Of a DNA stretch of 64,000 nucleotides, positions 10,392-25,960 are shown piece by piece. Every line of letters starts with the position of its first letter. Within the stretch, counting starts at the first letter, position 1. Position numbers and translations under genes: made by a program. This stretch comes from Bacteroidales bacterium (GTDB taxonomy: Bacteria; Bacteroidota; Bacteroidia; Bacteroidales; UBA7960), in contig PUKZ01000148.1 in assembly GCA_003550725.1 (NCBI GenBank), positions 1 through 64,000 of the forward strand, written 5' to 3'. The notes beneath the pieces were generated by a model. It saw nothing but the letters and a program-made list of their open reading frames with translations. It did no database searches and had not been told where the DNA came from.

Positions 10392-12827
10392 ATGAAGAGC
10401 TTTTTTTTTAGGATGGGTTTGAAAAACAAAATCGTTTTTCTTATTTTATTGGCAACTGCGGTTATTTTTCTTGTTATAATAGGTTTTATGGCAAACAGAA
10501 ACAGGGCAGTTGAAATATCAAATGCTAAAGAACTTATTGAGAGTACAGGGAAAAACTACTCTGATCGATTCTCTGCGCATTTGAATTATACCATGGATAT
10601 TTCGAGGACGTTGGCTGATAATTCAAAGGCAATGATTGAATCGGGTAATCCTGAGAGAATAGTTCTTGATAAAATAATGAAAAAGACTTTAAAAGAAAAT
10701 CCTGAGTTTTTGGCTGTTTGGACGCGATGGAGTCCTGATGCTTTTGACGGACTGGATTCAGCCTATGTTGAAAGTGATTGGGGAACTTTAAGTGGTGTTT
10801 TTGACCTTAATTATTATTATCGAAACGGAGAAATTGTTCGTTACGTTGATATGACCACTGACCCGGATGATATGGATGATATTGAATTTGGGCCATATAT
10901 AACAATTCCAAAACAAACAGGTCAGGAAACTTTGCTAGAACCATATTATTATTCTTTTACTAACAGGCCGGAGGATGAGATACTAATGACTACAGCCTCT
11001 GTTCCTATATTTATTGACGGAGATTATCGGGGTGTAATGGCTATAGACATCGAGTTGGAATCATTTTTTGACAAAATTTCTAATATAGAGTTGTATGAAA
11101 GTGGTTTTGGTAAACTTATTTCATCAGAAGGTTCGTTGATAGCTCATCCTATGCTTAGTATGGTCGGAGAGTCTACTTATGAATTTATAAATCAGGAATC
11201 AGAGGTAATTGATGCCATAGAGAATGGTAAAACATTGTCTGTAACATATTACAGCTATGATCTTGACACAGAGGTTTTTAAACATTACACACCTGTTTAC
11301 ATAGGTGATACATCCACTCCATGGTCCTTCGCTTTGGAAGTACCGGTCTCGGAAATTAAAGCACCTGCCAACCAACGCTTTTGGATGGGTATTTTGTTTG
11401 CTATACTGGCAATAATTATTTTGTTTATTATAATAAGTCAAATTGCAAAATATATTACTTCACCTATTATTAAAACTACCAATGTATTGAAAACTCTTTC
11501 AAAAGGAGATCTTGATAATGTAAAGCCTCTGGAAGTCAGGAAAGAACAGGATGAGCTTGATCAGATGGCCCAAGCTACCAATACACTTGTAGAAGGTTTA
11601 AGAAATACTGTTTCTTTTGCTACAAGTATTGAAGAGGGTAAACTTGTCTCTGAGTTTAAAAAACTTAGTGACAAAGATCAATTGGGTCAGGCTTTGCTTA
11701 AAATGAGGAAAAGCCTTGTTGAAGCCAACAGGGAAGAACTGAAACGCAAAGAAGAAGATAAAAAGCGAAGATGGGCTACAGAAGGATATGCAAAATTTGG
11801 TGAAATATTACGTTATGATAACGATGACCTTGAAACCCTTACATATAAAGTTATAAAAAATCTTGTAGAATACCTTGATGCAACACAGGGAGGTGTTTTC
11901 ATTATTAATGATGAAGATGAAAACAATAAGTTCCTTGAAATGACAGCTTGTTATGCATATGACAGACGAAAATTTCTCGAAAAGAAAATAAACATTGGTG
12001 AAGGGCTTTTGGGAGCATGCTTTCTTGAAGGAAAAACCAAATATATGACCGAAATACCTGATTCTTATGTTAAAATAACATCAGGCCTGGGTGAAGAAAA
12101 ACCTAAGTCACTTATAATAGTTCCATTAAAACTTAATGAAGAAGTATACGGAATAATAGAATTAGCTTCACTTAATGAATTTAAACCACATCAAATAGAG
12201 TTTCTTGAAAAAATCGGTGAAAGCATAGCATCTACCATCTCATCACTTAAAACAAATATTCATACAGCCTCTTTGTTAAAAAAGTCACAGCAACAAGCTG
12301 AAGAAATGAAATCTCAAGAGGAGGAGATGCGTCAGAATATGGAAGAGCTTTCAGCTACACAAGAAGAAATGGCTCGTAAAACGAGTGAAATGAAAAGCAT
12401 ACTTAATGCATTGGATGCTTCCAGTTTTGTTCTTGAATATGACCTTAATGGTTATGCAACCAAAGTAAGTGATTCTTATTTGAAATTTTTAGGTATACCT
12501 GAAAATGAAGTTGTCGGTAAACACCATTCAAATAAAATTGAATTTACAAAAGAGCAAAAACAAGAATATGACAAGTTTTGGGAAGACCTGAAAAACGGAA
12601 AAATCAGGCAACAGGAAACAGAGCTTAACATAGATGGAAAAACTTTGTATGTTTCAGAAACTTATGCACCAATGCTTGACCAAAATGGAAACACTTATAA
12701 AATATTTAAAATAGCCAATGATATTACAAATAGTAAAAAAGCCATTATTGAATTAAAGCGGGAAAAAGAAAAATTAGATGAAGAGCTTAAAAAGTGCCTT
12801 GAACAAAATGCAAAATTAAAAAAATAG
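10392..12827 (+). CDS. Membrane sensor 1: Cache-HAMP-GAF-coiled coil-PAS, no output domain
   Basis: An 811-residue protein with a membrane helix at about 12-33, a large extracytoplasmic double-Cache-type region (35-328; TRWSPDAFDG, YDLDTEVFKHYTPVY), a second helix (330-352) and a HAMP (TSPIIKTTNVLKTLSKGDLD). A second HAMP-like linker leads to a GAF domain (about 473-621). A coiled coil with SQEEEMRQNMEELSATQEEM, a PAS domain (668-781) and a short Lys/Glu coiled-coil tail complete it. No histidine kinase, methyl-accepting, GGDEF/EAL, SpoIIE or cyclase domain follows. It shares the GAF-coiled-coil module with the proteins at 21166 and 23187. The 257-bp upstream spacer has only a near-match promoter (TACATTTTG at 10320). 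Confidence 0.85.
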   Translation: MKSFFFRMGLKNKIVFLILLATAVIFLVIIGFMANRNRAVEISNAKELIESTGKNYSDRFSAHLNYTMDISRTLADNSKAMIESGNPERIVLDKIMKKTLKENPEFLAVWTRWSPDAFDGLDSAYVESDWGTLSGVFDLNYYYRNGEIVRYVDMTTDPDDMDDIEFGPYITIPKQTGQETLLEPYYYSFTNRPEDEILMTTASVPIFIDGDYRGVMAIDIELESFFDKISNIELYESGFGKLISSEGSLIAHPMLSMVGESTYEFINQESEVIDAIENGKTLSVTYYSYDLDTEVFKHYTPVYIGDTSTPWSFALEVPVSEIKAPANQRFWMGILFAILAIIILFIIISQIAKYITSPIIKTTNVLKTLSKGDLDNVKPLEVRKEQDELDQMAQATNTLVEGLRNTVSFATSIEEGKLVSEFKKLSDKDQLGQALLKMRKSLVEANREELKRKEEDKKRRWATEGYAKFGEILRYDNDDLETLTYKVIKNLVEYLDATQGGVFIINDEDENNKFLEMTACYAYDRRKFLEKKINIGEGLLGACFLEGKTKYMTEIPDSYVKITSGLGEEKPKSLIIVPLKLNEEVYGIIELASLNEFKPHQIEFLEKIGESIASTISSLKTNIHTASLLKKSQQQAEEMKSQEEEMRQNMEELSATQEEMARKTSEMKSILNALDASSFVLEYDLNGYATKVSDSYLKFLGIPENEVVGKHHSNKIEFTKEQKQEYDKFWEDLKNGKIRQQETELNIDGKTLYVSETYAPMLDQNGNTYKIFKIANDITNSKKAIIELKREKEKLDEELKKCLEQNAKLKK

Positions 12828-21165: not shown

Positions 21166-23112
21166 ATGAAAATAAACATGACTATTGGAAAAACAATTGG
21201 AATTGGATTCGCTGCTTTTGCTGTATTATTTTTAATTATTAATTATTTTTCATTATCGGTAATAAAAGAAAATCAGGAATTAAACAGACGTGATAGCGAA
21301 ATATATGTTCCGTCAATTAATTTATTGATAGAATTTAATAAAATCCTTACTAGTTCTGAAATACTTGCCGGCAACTCTGTTAATTTTCAAAATACTAATA
21401 ATGAAAGTTATAAAGACCGGTTGCGTGAAAAGAGCCAGAAATATTATCCTGAGTTGAGAAATAAATTGGAAGATGTTTATGTTAAATGGGATCAGGAACA
21501 ACAGAACAAGCTTGATAAGATTTTTTATCTGTCAGATGAGCTGTTTATGGTTTACAGTTTTGTTTTGAACAAATTAGAAGACATTGAGATTGATGATGAC
21601 GTTGAATTAACTTCAGAGATAATTCCTTTGATTGAACCTGGAGGTAAAATAACAGATAATACAAGTCTTATAGTTGAAAAACTGGATGAATTAACCGGGA
21701 TTCATCAAAACAATTTAAAAGAAGGAAGAGTTGAAGCGAAACAATTATCAGATAATTACACAAGACGCAATTTTATAATGATTATTGTTCTTTTGGCCGG
21801 TGGGTTTGTAATTGCCACTTTATCTGTTAAACATATATCAAGACCTCTTGGTTCGTTGAGGAGAGTTTTAAATTACCTTAGTCACGGAAAACTTCCTGAT
21901 AACGATACGATAAAGCATACAAACAATTATGAAATTAAACAGATGGTTGAGGCTACTAAAAAACTTGTTGATGGTCTGAAGGAAAAAACTTCTTTTGCCA
22001 AAGATATAGGCCAGGGCAATTTTGAATCTGATTACAAGCCACAAACCAACGAAGACATATTAGGTGTTTCATTAATAGAAATGCGTGATAGCCTACGGGC
22101 AGCAGCCGAGGAAGAAAAAAAGAGGCAAGTTGAAGACAAAAAACGTAATTGGACTACCCAGGGAATTGCCAAATTCTCTGAATTACTTCGCCAAAATAAT
22201 GATAATTTACAAGAATTATCGTTCAGACTTATCAAAAATATGGTTAATTATCTTGATGCAAATCAAGGAGGCCTTTTTATTTTGAGTGATGAAAAAGAAA
22301 ATGAAGAGCAATTTGTTGAGCTTATTGCATGTTATGCTTACAAAAGAAAGAAATACAGGAAGAAGAAGATTTTCAAGGGCGAAGGACTGGTAGGAACGTG
22401 TTTGCAGGAAGGCGAAACAATTTTTATTTCTGATGTTCCTGATAATTATATTGAAATAACCTCAGGATTGGGAGACTCTAATCCAAGATCAATATTAATT
22501 GTACCACTTAAACTAAATGATGAGATATATGGTGTTGTTGAGATTGCATCATTTAATGTTTTTGAAACCTATCAAATAAAATTTGTTGAAAAAATAGGAG
22601 AATCTATTGCCTCAACAATTTCAAGTGTGAAAATTAATATTCATACCAATGATTTGCTAAAGCAATCTCAGGAACAAAGCGAAGAAATGCGGGCACAGGA
22701 AGAAGAGATGCGTCAAAACATGGAAGAAATGAATGCCACTCAAGAAGAAATGGAACGCAAAGAAGCTGAAAACCAGGAATTCTATACTACAATAAACAGC
22801 ATTACCGGCATTATTTACATATCTCTTGAAGGTATTATAAAATCTGTTAATCAAACTTTTTCTGACATTACCGGCTACGACGAGCAAGAATTGATTGGTA
22901 AAGACCACAAAGTTTTATTCGACAAAAAATTTACCCAAAATACCATATACAAAAAATTATGGGAGGATGTAAACAACGGGCAACAAATTACTTCTGAATT
23001 TAAGCTTATTAATAGCAACAATGAAGTAATCAAAGTAAACGGAACATTTGGAGCAATAAGAGATAAGTTTGGCACAATAACAAAATTAATTTTTGTTGTT
23101 ACAAATTATTAA
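21166..23112 (+). CDS. Membrane sensor 2: four-helix bundle-HAMP-GAF-coiled coil-PAS, no output domain
   Basis: A 648-residue protein with a membrane helix at about 9-31 and a helical extracytoplasmic domain (32-198) resembling the four-helix-bundle sensor of chemoreceptors. A second helix (200-219), a HAMP, and the GAF module shared with the other two sensors follow (about 341-495; DANQGGLFILSDEKEN, ACYAYKRKKYRKK). The coiled coil carries RAQEEEMRQNMEEMNATQEEM, and the protein ends in a PAS domain (538-648; VNQTFSDITGYDEQELIGKD). The PAS form resembles those of methyl-accepting proteins, but no signalling tip follows. It is 74 bp upstream of sensor 3, probably cotranscribed. Confidence 0.85.
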   Translation: MKINMTIGKTIGIGFAAFAVLFLIINYFSLSVIKENQELNRRDSEIYVPSINLLIEFNKILTSSEILAGNSVNFQNTNNESYKDRLREKSQKYYPELRNKLEDVYVKWDQEQQNKLDKIFYLSDELFMVYSFVLNKLEDIEIDDDVELTSEIIPLIEPGGKITDNTSLIVEKLDELTGIHQNNLKEGRVEAKQLSDNYTRRNFIMIIVLLAGGFVIATLSVKHISRPLGSLRRVLNYLSHGKLPDNDTIKHTNNYEIKQMVEATKKLVDGLKEKTSFAKDIGQGNFESDYKPQTNEDILGVSLIEMRDSLRAAAEEEKKRQVEDKKRNWTTQGIAKFSELLRQNNDNLQELSFRLIKNMVNYLDANQGGLFILSDEKENEEQFVELIACYAYKRKKYRKKKIFKGEGLVGTCLQEGETIFISDVPDNYIEITSGLGDSNPRSILIVPLKLNDEIYGVVEIASFNVFETYQIKFVEKIGESIASTISSVKINIHTNDLLKQSQEQSEEMRAQEEEMRQNMEEMNATQEEMERKEAENQEFYTTINSITGIIYISLEGIIKSVNQTFSDITGYDEQELIGKDHKVLFDKKFTQNTIYKKLWEDVNNGQQITSEFKLINSNNEVIKVNGTFGAIRDKFGTITKLIFVVTNY

Positions 23113-23186
23113 AGTAATTAATTTAACAAGACCAATCTATTATTCTATTAATAGGGTTTATTTACGAATCTTTAGCTTGAAATATT

Positions 23187-25346
23187 ATGAAATTTTTTGA
23201 AAGAATGAATGTTTTCGGCAAAATGTTGTTTTCTGTTCTGGTTGTTTCAGTGATTATTTATTCTATATCAATAGGTTATATAATTGTTAATTTGCAACAA
23301 AAAACAGTTGATGATGCAAAGCAACATACAAGAACGCTTGCTAGAGAATATGCAAATTACGTTACGAAAGAACTAAATTACGATTTTGACCTGACGCGGG
23401 GATTGGGATGGGCTTTTCAGGAATTTGAAAAATTAGATTCGGAACAGCGCGACGATTTTTATAATGACATACTCAAAAATTTCCTAATAAAAAATTCAAA
23501 CTTTTTTTCTACCTGGGTTTCATGGGAGTTAAATGCAATATTGCCTGATTACGATTTGCCTTATGGAAGAGTCAGGCATGCCTTTTTTAGAGATAACAAT
23601 AATATTGATTACATGGTTGATACCCTGGAACTGGAAGGAGATGATGAGGGCAGCTTATATCATCAAATTAAACAAGACAAAAAAGAAACCATTACAGACC
23701 CTTACTGGTTTAGTTATACAGGACTTGAGGAAGACAAGATTCTGGAAGTTAGCCCATCTATACCCATATTAATTAACGATTCATTTGCAGGACTCGTAGG
23801 AAGTGATATAATACTTGACCGATTTCAGGATTTTATAACATCAATAAAACCATCAGGTGTAGGATATATGTTTTTATTATCAAATGACGGCACTTTCATA
23901 GGACATCCCAGTGAAAATTTTTTGGGCAAAAACATAAGCGATGTTGAAAATGAATATGCTAAAGAAAAAAACATAAAGCACAAAATACAAAATAGTGAGT
24001 TTTTTGATCATTTCAGAAAAGACAGTATTTTTCAGGAACAGGCTTACGTGGCTTTTGCGCCGGTTCCTGTAGGAAACATTGACAAGCCGTGGTCTTTGGG
24101 TATTGTTATTCCTGAAAAACATATGATGAAAGAAGTAAATAAAACAATTTTTAATTCTGTAATGGTAGGTGTGCTGGGCTTAATTATTTTGTCTTTTGTT
24201 ATCTACCTTATAGCACGAAAAATTACAAAACCATTAGCTGAAACCAAAAGTGTTTTGCAAACTATTTCTAAGGGCGACCTTGATAACGTAAATAAACTTA
24301 AGATTAAAAGCGGTGATGAAATCGGAGAAATATCTGAATCCTTAAATTCTTTGGTTGAAGGATTAAAACGAACTGCTGATTTTGCTAACAAAATAGGAGA
24401 AGGCAAGCTTGATGCCGAATTTGAGCTACTTAGCAATAACGATGTATTGGGCAATTCGCTTCTAAATATGAGCGCAAGCCTAAAAAAAGCTGAAAAAGAA
24501 GAAAATAAACGAAAACTGGAAGATAAAAAAAGAAACTGGGCTACAAAGGGACATGCGACGTTTGCCGATATATTACGACAAAACAATGACAACATTGAGG
24601 AGCTGTCTTATAAAGTGATATTTAATCTGGTTAAATATCTTAATGCTAATCAAGGAGGTATATTTGTACTAAATGACGATGACCCAAACAATAAATTTCT
24701 TGAATTAACTGCATGTTATGCTTTTGACAGAAGAAAATATCTTCAAAAAACTATTCAGCCTGGAGAAGGTCTTGTGGGTGCATGTTTTCTTGAACAAAAA
24801 ACCACATATATAAAGGATGTTCCACAAGATTACATTCATATTACCTCAGGGCTTGGTGGTGAAAATCCCGGTTGTATTCTGATTGTGCCGCTTATCATAA
24901 ATGAAGAAGTTATGGGTGTTATTGAACTAGCTTCATTCAATTATTTCGAAAAACATGAAATAGAGTTCATTGAAAAAGTTGCCGAGAGCATTGCAAGTAC
25001 AATATCCAATGCCAAAATTAATGCTAAAACCGCATACCTGCTGGAGCAGTCGCAACAACAAACCGAAGAAATGAGGGCACAAGAAGAAGAAATGCGGCAA
25101 AATATGGAAGAACTTCAGGCTACTCAGGAAGAAAAAAACCGGAGAGATGAGGAAATGCAAACCAAGTTAAATCAAAAAATGGAAGAGTTAAATATAGAAA
25201 AAGAAAAAACAGAGAAAATGTCAGCCAAATATAATAATGAAACTAATGAACTTTCTCAAAAAATAGAAATGCTTAAAATACAGATAAAACAAAAAGATGA
25301 ACAAATTGCCAAATTAAAAGAAGAAGGAAAAAGCAAAAATAAATAA
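23187..25346 (+). CDS. Membrane sensor 3: Cache-HAMP-GAF-long coiled coil, no output domain
   Basis: A 719-residue protein with a membrane helix at about 10-31, a double-Cache-type periplasmic region (32-312; STWVSWELNAILPDYDLPYG, FIGHPSENFLGKN), a second helix (317-340) and a HAMP. The shared GAF module (462-612; NANQGGIFVLNDDDPNN) follows. The PAS of its paralogues is replaced by a coiled coil of about 100 residues to the C-terminus (RAQEEEMRQNMEELQATQEE, then Lys/Glu heptads). No enzymatic output domain is present. The periplasmic half resembles sensor 1 (10392), whereas sensor 2 has an unrelated sensor domain. A gene for a small V4R-like protein follows 38 bp later. Confidence 0.85.
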   Translation: MKFFERMNVFGKMLFSVLVVSVIIYSISIGYIIVNLQQKTVDDAKQHTRTLAREYANYVTKELNYDFDLTRGLGWAFQEFEKLDSEQRDDFYNDILKNFLIKNSNFFSTWVSWELNAILPDYDLPYGRVRHAFFRDNNNIDYMVDTLELEGDDEGSLYHQIKQDKKETITDPYWFSYTGLEEDKILEVSPSIPILINDSFAGLVGSDIILDRFQDFITSIKPSGVGYMFLLSNDGTFIGHPSENFLGKNISDVENEYAKEKNIKHKIQNSEFFDHFRKDSIFQEQAYVAFAPVPVGNIDKPWSLGIVIPEKHMMKEVNKTIFNSVMVGVLGLIILSFVIYLIARKITKPLAETKSVLQTISKGDLDNVNKLKIKSGDEIGEISESLNSLVEGLKRTADFANKIGEGKLDAEFELLSNNDVLGNSLLNMSASLKKAEKEENKRKLEDKKRNWATKGHATFADILRQNNDNIEELSYKVIFNLVKYLNANQGGIFVLNDDDPNNKFLELTACYAFDRRKYLQKTIQPGEGLVGACFLEQKTTYIKDVPQDYIHITSGLGGENPGCILIVPLIINEEVMGVIELASFNYFEKHEIEFIEKVAESIASTISNAKINAKTAYLLEQSQQQTEEMRAQEEEMRQNMEELQATQEEKNRRDEEMQTKLNQKMEELNIEKEKTEKMSAKYNNETNELSQKIEMLKIQIKQKDEQIAKLKEEGKSKNK

Positions 25347-25384
25347 TAGCTCAATTGACATATAAAAATCCTAATTTTTAGTTT

Positions 25385-25960
25385 ATGGCACAATTTCAAG
25401 TATTTGAAAAAGGGATATATGTAAATGGTCAAACTATTTTAGCTGTTGTTAACGGGATGCCCAAATTTAAGGACCTGGCATTTATGATTCTTAGTGAAAA
25501 CGGCCTGCAAAATATACATGTAAATCAAAGGTATTCGATGCAATCGTGGTTAAATGCATTTAAAACCATTGCCGAGGAAATAGGAGAAAAAACCTTGTTT
25601 GAAATAGGAAAAGTCATACCATACAGTGCCGATTTTCCATCTGACATAACCACAATTGAAAAAGGCCTTAAATCAATTGATATTGCTTATCATATTAATC
25701 ATTCCAAAAACGGGAAGGATCCAATGTATAACCCTCAAACCCGTGAAATGCAAGAAGGTATCGGGCACTATATTTTTGAATCTACCGGTAATAATTCGGC
25801 AAAAATAATTGGTAGCAATCCATATCCTTGTGAATTTGACAGAGGAATTATATCAGCTATGGCTCAAAAATATAAACCCTTAGCTATAGTAAATATTGAC
25901 TTGGATTCAGAAAACAGAAAGAGCGGAGGAAAAACAACCACTTATATAATTAAATGGTAA
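25385..25960 (+). CDS. Small conserved protein, possible V4R / heme-NO-binding-like fold
   Basis: A 191-residue soluble protein that I do not recognise by name. The C-terminal third has the spacing of V4R, DUF2378 and HNOB-type domains: GIGHYIFESTG, then NPYPCEFDRGIISAMAQKY, then a strand (LAIVNIDLD) and a final G-x-x-T-T-Y-I-I-K-W. Such domains bind small ligands or metal through the Cys region. The assignment is inference from pattern only. It follows sensor 3 by 38 bp with no hairpin between, so it is probably made with sensors 2 and 3. The spacer 25961-26076 shows nothing. Confidence 0.5.
   Translation: MAQFQVFEKGIYVNGQTILAVVNGMPKFKDLAFMILSENGLQNIHVNQRYSMQSWLNAFKTIAEEIGEKTLFEIGKVIPYSADFPSDITTIEKGLKSIDIAYHINHSKNGKDPMYNPQTREMQEGIGHYIFESTGNNSAKIIGSNPYPCEFDRGIISAMAQKYKPLAIVNIDLDSENRKSGGKTTTYIIKW

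Follow-up and report, generated by a model that had tools for sequence, protein, structure and literature searches.

A predicted H-NOX-fold protein without the heme motif, encoded behind a member of a large family of output-less Bacteroidota receptors

H-NOX proteins act in trans on histidine kinases, and on methyl-accepting chemotaxis proteins (MCPs) by being fused to them (PMC12329717). The H-NOX of S. oneidensis uses His103 and has a zinc site with cysteines 139, 164 and 172 (PMC7108781), and the redox cysteines of the V4R sensor MsvR are at positions 206, 232 and 240 (PMC3729527). Here we analysed a 64,000-nucleotide stretch of a Bacteroidales genome (contig PUKZ01000148.1; hereafter the window) that carries a locus best described as the pairing of a protein of predicted H-NOX fold, lacking the heme motif, with an output-less receptor from a large family in Bacteroidota. 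We found no description of the small protein's family, or of output-less HAMP-GAF receptors in Bacteroidota, in the open-licence literature.

The locus comprises three intact open reading frames on the forward strand, at the positions given in the original prediction: S1 (21166-23112; 648 aa), S2 (23187-25346; 719 aa) and P3 (25385-25960; 191 aa), with intergenic gaps of 74 bp between S1 and S2 and 38 bp between S2 and P3. S1 has two transmembrane helices, a HAMP-like stretch, a GAF domain (aa 347-485), a coiled coil with the motif EEEMRQNMEE and a C-terminal PAS domain (aa 547-645). S2 consists of a dCache_1 domain (aa 98-306), HAMP (aa 341-394), GAF (aa 471-606) and a coiled coil that ends bare, with no Pfam domain past the GAF. 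These two ends, and the absence of any output domain from both proteins in Pfam and NCBIfam, are as predicted. The proposal that both share a HAMP-GAF-coiled coil with EEEMRQNMEE holds for the motif in both proteins and for HAMP in S2; the HAMP-like stretch of S1 has no HAMP match in Pfam. Two features had been missed, namely that the extracellular part of S2 is a double-Cache domain and that the window encodes another member of this sensor family, the third, S3 (10392-12827, forward strand; 811 aa), which has two transmembrane helices, a GAF domain, a coiled coil and a PAS-like end and lies away from P3. Other contigs of the source genome encode two further output-less sensors and one SpoIIE-ended relative, and among six sensors aligned from this genome EEEMRQNMEE is found in S1, S2 and two paralogues. 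A scan for promoters and terminators stayed at chance level.

Searched with a profile built on the GAF-coiled-coil segment common to these sensors, 47 of 198 class-level genomes proved to contain members of the family, with as many as 32 copies in one P3-carrying genome. All 65 full-length relatives sampled have GAF; PAS (PAS_9) occurs in 40, HAMP in 27, hemerythrin and SpoIIE in three each, and Cache domains in a minority. No HATPase_c/kinase, MCP or GGDEF domain was found in any of the 65, and 62 lack any output domain. Neither HisKA with HATPase_c nor the MCPsignal domain is present in S1, S2 or the sampled members. Given this shared absence, the missing output is a normal trait of the family and not damage. 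The reading of S1 and S2 as truncated kinases is rejected on the same sample (HATPase_c in 0/65), and the kinase-attached relatives that had been expected were not found; SpoIIE is the only output domain in the sample. Bare coiled-coil ends are common within the family. Sensors of the same family with a hemerythrin-like C-terminal domain are encoded at L174 2160-4886 and L205 1579-4284, and judging from such members, different sensor modules seem to be exchanged at the ends of the coiled coils. Another bare-coiled-coil sensor type, represented in two genera (L011 2713-4530 and L165 5323-7248), has in common a basic C-terminal peptide, W..HL.KS..KFKKG..KK, which is possibly a docking tail of its own.

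The S1-S2 tandem recurs in six further genomes from the same family (G003, G007, G010, G015, G017 and G019), and in all six the S2 orthologue ends in a PAS domain. Window S2 aligns with the G003 orthologue without gaps over residues 1-661 (71.6% identity), after which there is no similarity and the window protein switches abruptly to a 58-residue coiled-coil tail (residues 662-719; 25170-25343, forward strand) at the position of the orthologues' PAS. A PAS remnant was sought in every frame, and none was found. Thus, compared with its six tandem-bearing relatives, only window S2 has a coiled-coil tail followed by P3 instead of PAS, a natural experiment hinting at a possible contact site. An alternative reading is that S2 is undergoing decay, with the PAS lost through mutation, a tail without meaning and P3 inserted behind it by chance. 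At 21.7% GC, compared with 34.5% for the remainder of S2, the tail is rich in AT, and no relatives of it were detected among the compared loci, as decay might leave it; however, its frame is open and encodes a regular charged coiled coil, not an out-of-frame PAS, the P3-adjacent sensors of two other lineages likewise end in a bare coiled coil, and the frequency of such ends in the family also speaks against decay, which we consider highly improbable.

Within the replacing tail, the peptide EMLKIQIK (S2 aa 694-701; 25266-25289, forward strand) has similar counterparts in the tails of the two other sensors next to P3. This EMLKxxxK-like peptide is absent from the other sampled sensors. In a control with 969 trios drawn at random from coiled-coil tails, 17 were as similar as the P3-adjacent trio, which makes the shared peptide moderately unusual, and for this reason it was downgraded from a proof of docking to a lead. 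The Chlorobiota sensor that precedes P3 (L019 7909-9966) has the terminal repeats LLKVRLKR / EMLKVRLKR.

P3 has no match in Pfam or NCBIfam and is present in a single copy in the source genome. The family is rare among close genomes (3 of 59 relatives, the window genome counted, and 4 of 295 genomes of the class), and the wider survey returned 164 genome matches across many phyla, all unannotated as a family, of which we read 80. Hosts include Bacteroidota, Chlorobiota, Spirochaetota, Synergistota, Chloroflexota, Myxococcota and Asgard archaea, among others. Plasmid-borne relatives include Haloarcula copies, whose neighbours (DUF2249, MarR and stress proteins) give no clear NO or redox context; relatives that are annotated are labelled hypothetical. 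Tandem duplicates of P3 occur in a Myxococcota genome (L074 948-2193) and on a Leptolinea plasmid (L033 9219-10585). No member was found in phage records or PHROGs, a search of the viral structure library gave nothing at E 0.001, and a sequence search against solved structures gave chance matches only.

Nine positions are invariant or nearly so in the family (D99, Y102, H103, N105, H106, Y129, P146, P148 and G154), and window P3 carries the family signature D99 Y102 H103 N105 H106 ... NPYP. Three cysteines, C149, C177 and C185, with a C-x7-C end, are found in 64 of 85 members. Window P3 keeps C149 only, and the last two cysteines are also missing from both other P3 copies beside S2-type sensors. 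With two of the three zinc-site cysteines gone, window P3 is unlikely to work through the same cysteine switch as related copies.

The predicted models of window P3 (pLDDT 96) and of a Treponema member (pLDDT 94.7) both have the S. oneidensis H-NOX as best structural match, over nearly the full length (Z 14.2, 163 residues aligned, rmsd 3.1 for window P3; Z 13.2, 164 residues, rmsd 3.5 for the Treponema protein), followed by VirS (10.9 and 10.3), BcsD, PoxR and TRAPPC3. P3 is accordingly modelled as a full-length H-NOX fold from which the heme motif is missing. The V4R/HNOB-like C-terminus of the original prediction agrees with this modelled fold, while no curated family model assigns P3. None of 80 members matches HNOB (PF07700) at E values up to 1, and a sequence link between P3 and H-NOX was rejected when hhalign gave a probability of 1% against three HNOB proteins. 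The heme-propionate motif YxSxR was looked for in 85 P3 sequences, and Y.S.R appears in one of them, a chance occurrence. V4R (PF02830) is not detected in window P3 and gives weak matches in 6 of 80 relatives, all below the curated cut-off (best E 0.0015); a plain V4R identity is weaker than the H-NOX one, its match being sub-threshold and confined to the C-terminal half.

A true heme-based sensor of NO or O2, strongly diverged from other H-NOX proteins and with H103 as proximal ligand, would account for the predicted full-length fold and both of its Z scores. It would also fit the invariance of H103, which sits in the helix ahead of the C-terminal half (S. oneidensis H-NOX likewise uses a His103; PMC7108781), and the partner classes, as MCPs and kinases are partners of H-NOX (PMC12329717) and of P3 alike. 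Set against this are the lack of an HNOB match in every one of the 80 members, the missing YxSxR motif and the absence of profile similarity, and we regard heme-based sensing by P3 as unlikely. A genome of the same genus (G002) has a canonical HNOB gene that is interrupted close to its start by an in-frame stop (L156 around 1500-2016); the window genome has no HNOB match.

Relatives of P3 are linked to receptors across many phyla. The gene directly upstream of P3, among 82 copies, encodes an MCP in 14 cases, a histidine kinase in six and an S2-type sensor in two, all on the same strand; these 22 of 82 compare with 7 receptors among 545 genes at distance 3-8 from P3. For the remaining 60 copies, the upstream neighbour is not a receptor. 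Leptolinea tardivitalis, which can be cultivated, is one host in which P3 lies behind an MCP. A Hodarchaeota genome encodes a fusion of P3 to a kinase (REC-HisKA-HATPase_c-P3). The sampled MCP partners show the MCP signalling domain alone in Pfam, with no sensor domain, and several have no transmembrane helix. The two S2-type partners, both bare-coiled-coil sensors, precede P3 by 5 bp in Cytophagales and 34 bp in Chlorobiota. Partner types cluster on the P3 tree, where the Cytophagales and Chlorobiota copies group with the window copy and that of G015. The three S2-type-linked copies may stem from one ancestral pairing and therefore do not represent three independent events.

The expectation that P3 would be a constant neighbour of these sensors was not borne out: besides the window copy, 2 of 82 copies follow an S2-type sensor, most S2-type sensors in P3-bearing genomes are not beside P3, and in G015 and G043 the gene adjoins unrelated genes (ParA and PNPase, respectively), away from any sensor. 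Recurrent adjacency to receptors, two other bare-coiled-coil S2-type sensors included, does hold for the family. It is conceivable that P3 is a free-standing mobile regulator or small enzyme, that its site behind S2 is accidental and that S2 works independently of it. Same-strand receptor enrichment directly upstream, the kinase fusion and the recurrence of S2-type architecture beside P3 in two other lineages all make such independence rather doubtful, even with the rarity and patchiness of the gene, the orphan copies beside ParA and PNPase and the majority of copies without a receptor neighbour in its favour. Because its relatives stand next to chemotaxis receptors and to sensor kinases across many phyla, P3 probably serves receptors as a detachable partner for sensing, and the idea that the small protein senses or binds a ligand for its neighbour is reasonable given the H-NOX-like fold of the models.

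On balance we lean towards P3 as a soluble H-NOX-fold sensor or adaptor that acts in trans on membrane receptors, here on S2, in which it would replace the PAS domain. By analogy with H-NOX, it would bind the cytoplasmic coiled coil of the receptor and alter the receptor upon ligand binding or oxidation. In S2 this contact would lie at or near the new coiled-coil tail, P3 substituting for the C-terminal PAS of the orthologues. S2 would integrate an extracellular signal, passed from dCache through HAMP, with cytoplasmic signals from its own GAF domain and from P3, and S1 would be its co-encoded sister. The likeliest output of S2 would be another family member that works via the GAF-coiled-coil region they have in common; the most plausible candidate is the lone GAF-coiled coil-PAS-PAS-SpoIIE phosphatase, encoded elsewhere in the genome beside DUF6272 and SiaC.

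Members ending in SpoIIE make up their own subfamily, about 830-880 aa long. Full-length SpoIIE members occur in 12 of the 14 genomes that have output-less sensors, compared with 1 of 20 without them (Fisher p 2e-6, a statistic that ignores shared ancestry). The source genome's only SpoIIE-ended relative adjoins DUF6272 and SiaC genes, the partner types of the SiaA/B/C module. At this locus (L013; C17:124500-132689) the SpoIIE gene is followed by DUF6272 and SiaC, and a GAF-only protein, CheB and a CheR-like gene lie alongside; the neighbourhood is possibly a partner-switch hub. The lone SpoIIE phosphatase is thus a candidate for the shared output of the output-less sensors. A chemotaxis-type output through the encoded CheY, CheA, CheW and MCP is also possible; S2, however, has no MCP tip. 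The same genome carries a complete-looking CheY-CheY-CheA-CheW-MCP cluster (L258 5294-11154; C17), which includes its only canonical MCP. More speculatively, and with real reservations, Bacteroidota might use a many-to-one arrangement in which numerous output-less Cache/HAMP-GAF-coiled-coil receptors would converge on a single GAF-coiled-coil-SpoIIE phosphatase and its partners DUF6272 and SiaC, the H-NOX-fold P3, devoid of the heme motif, being an interchangeable sensor in the place of PAS that would also serve MCPs and kinases elsewhere.

If the favoured mechanism is correct, an unannotated bacterial and archaeal family would widen H-NOX-type sensing past the heme motif. The P3 family would also provide a sensing partner for receptors without a recognised sensor domain, and the signal relay of a large output-less receptor family in Bacteroidota would become testable.

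Among described systems, the SiaA/SiaB/SiaC partner-switch phosphatase modules resemble the source-genome SpoIIE sensor in its position beside DUF6272 and SiaC; they differ in that its sensor part is GAF-coiled coil-PAS-PAS, and the tie to the window locus is one of family resemblance and co-occurrence only. Like methyl-accepting chemotaxis receptors, S2 has dCache, transmembrane segments, HAMP and a long cytoplasmic coiled coil, and relatives of P3 pair with MCPs, whereas the MCP signalling tip is missing from S1, S2 and all 65 relatives. In contrast to V4R sensors of the MsvR and PoxR/MopR type, P3 has no DNA-binding or AAA+ domain, its matches to them lie below curated thresholds and its H-NOX match is better and longer; it resembles them in the C-terminal half of the predicted fold (PoxR, Z 8.8), in weak matches of some members to V4R and MsvR models, and in a cysteine spacing close to C206/C232/C240 of MsvR with an identical C-x7-C end (PMC3729527). 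Unlike H-NOX, P3 shows no HNOB match, YxSxR motif or detectable sequence similarity, stands as a separate gene behind MCPs instead of being fused to them and, in the window copy, lacks two of the three zinc-site cysteines. It shares with H-NOX the predicted fold over its whole length and the MCP and histidine kinase partner classes, and in most P3 relatives C149/C177/C185 follow the pattern of C139/C164/C172 in the S. oneidensis zinc site, which likewise ends in C-x7-C (PMC7108781).
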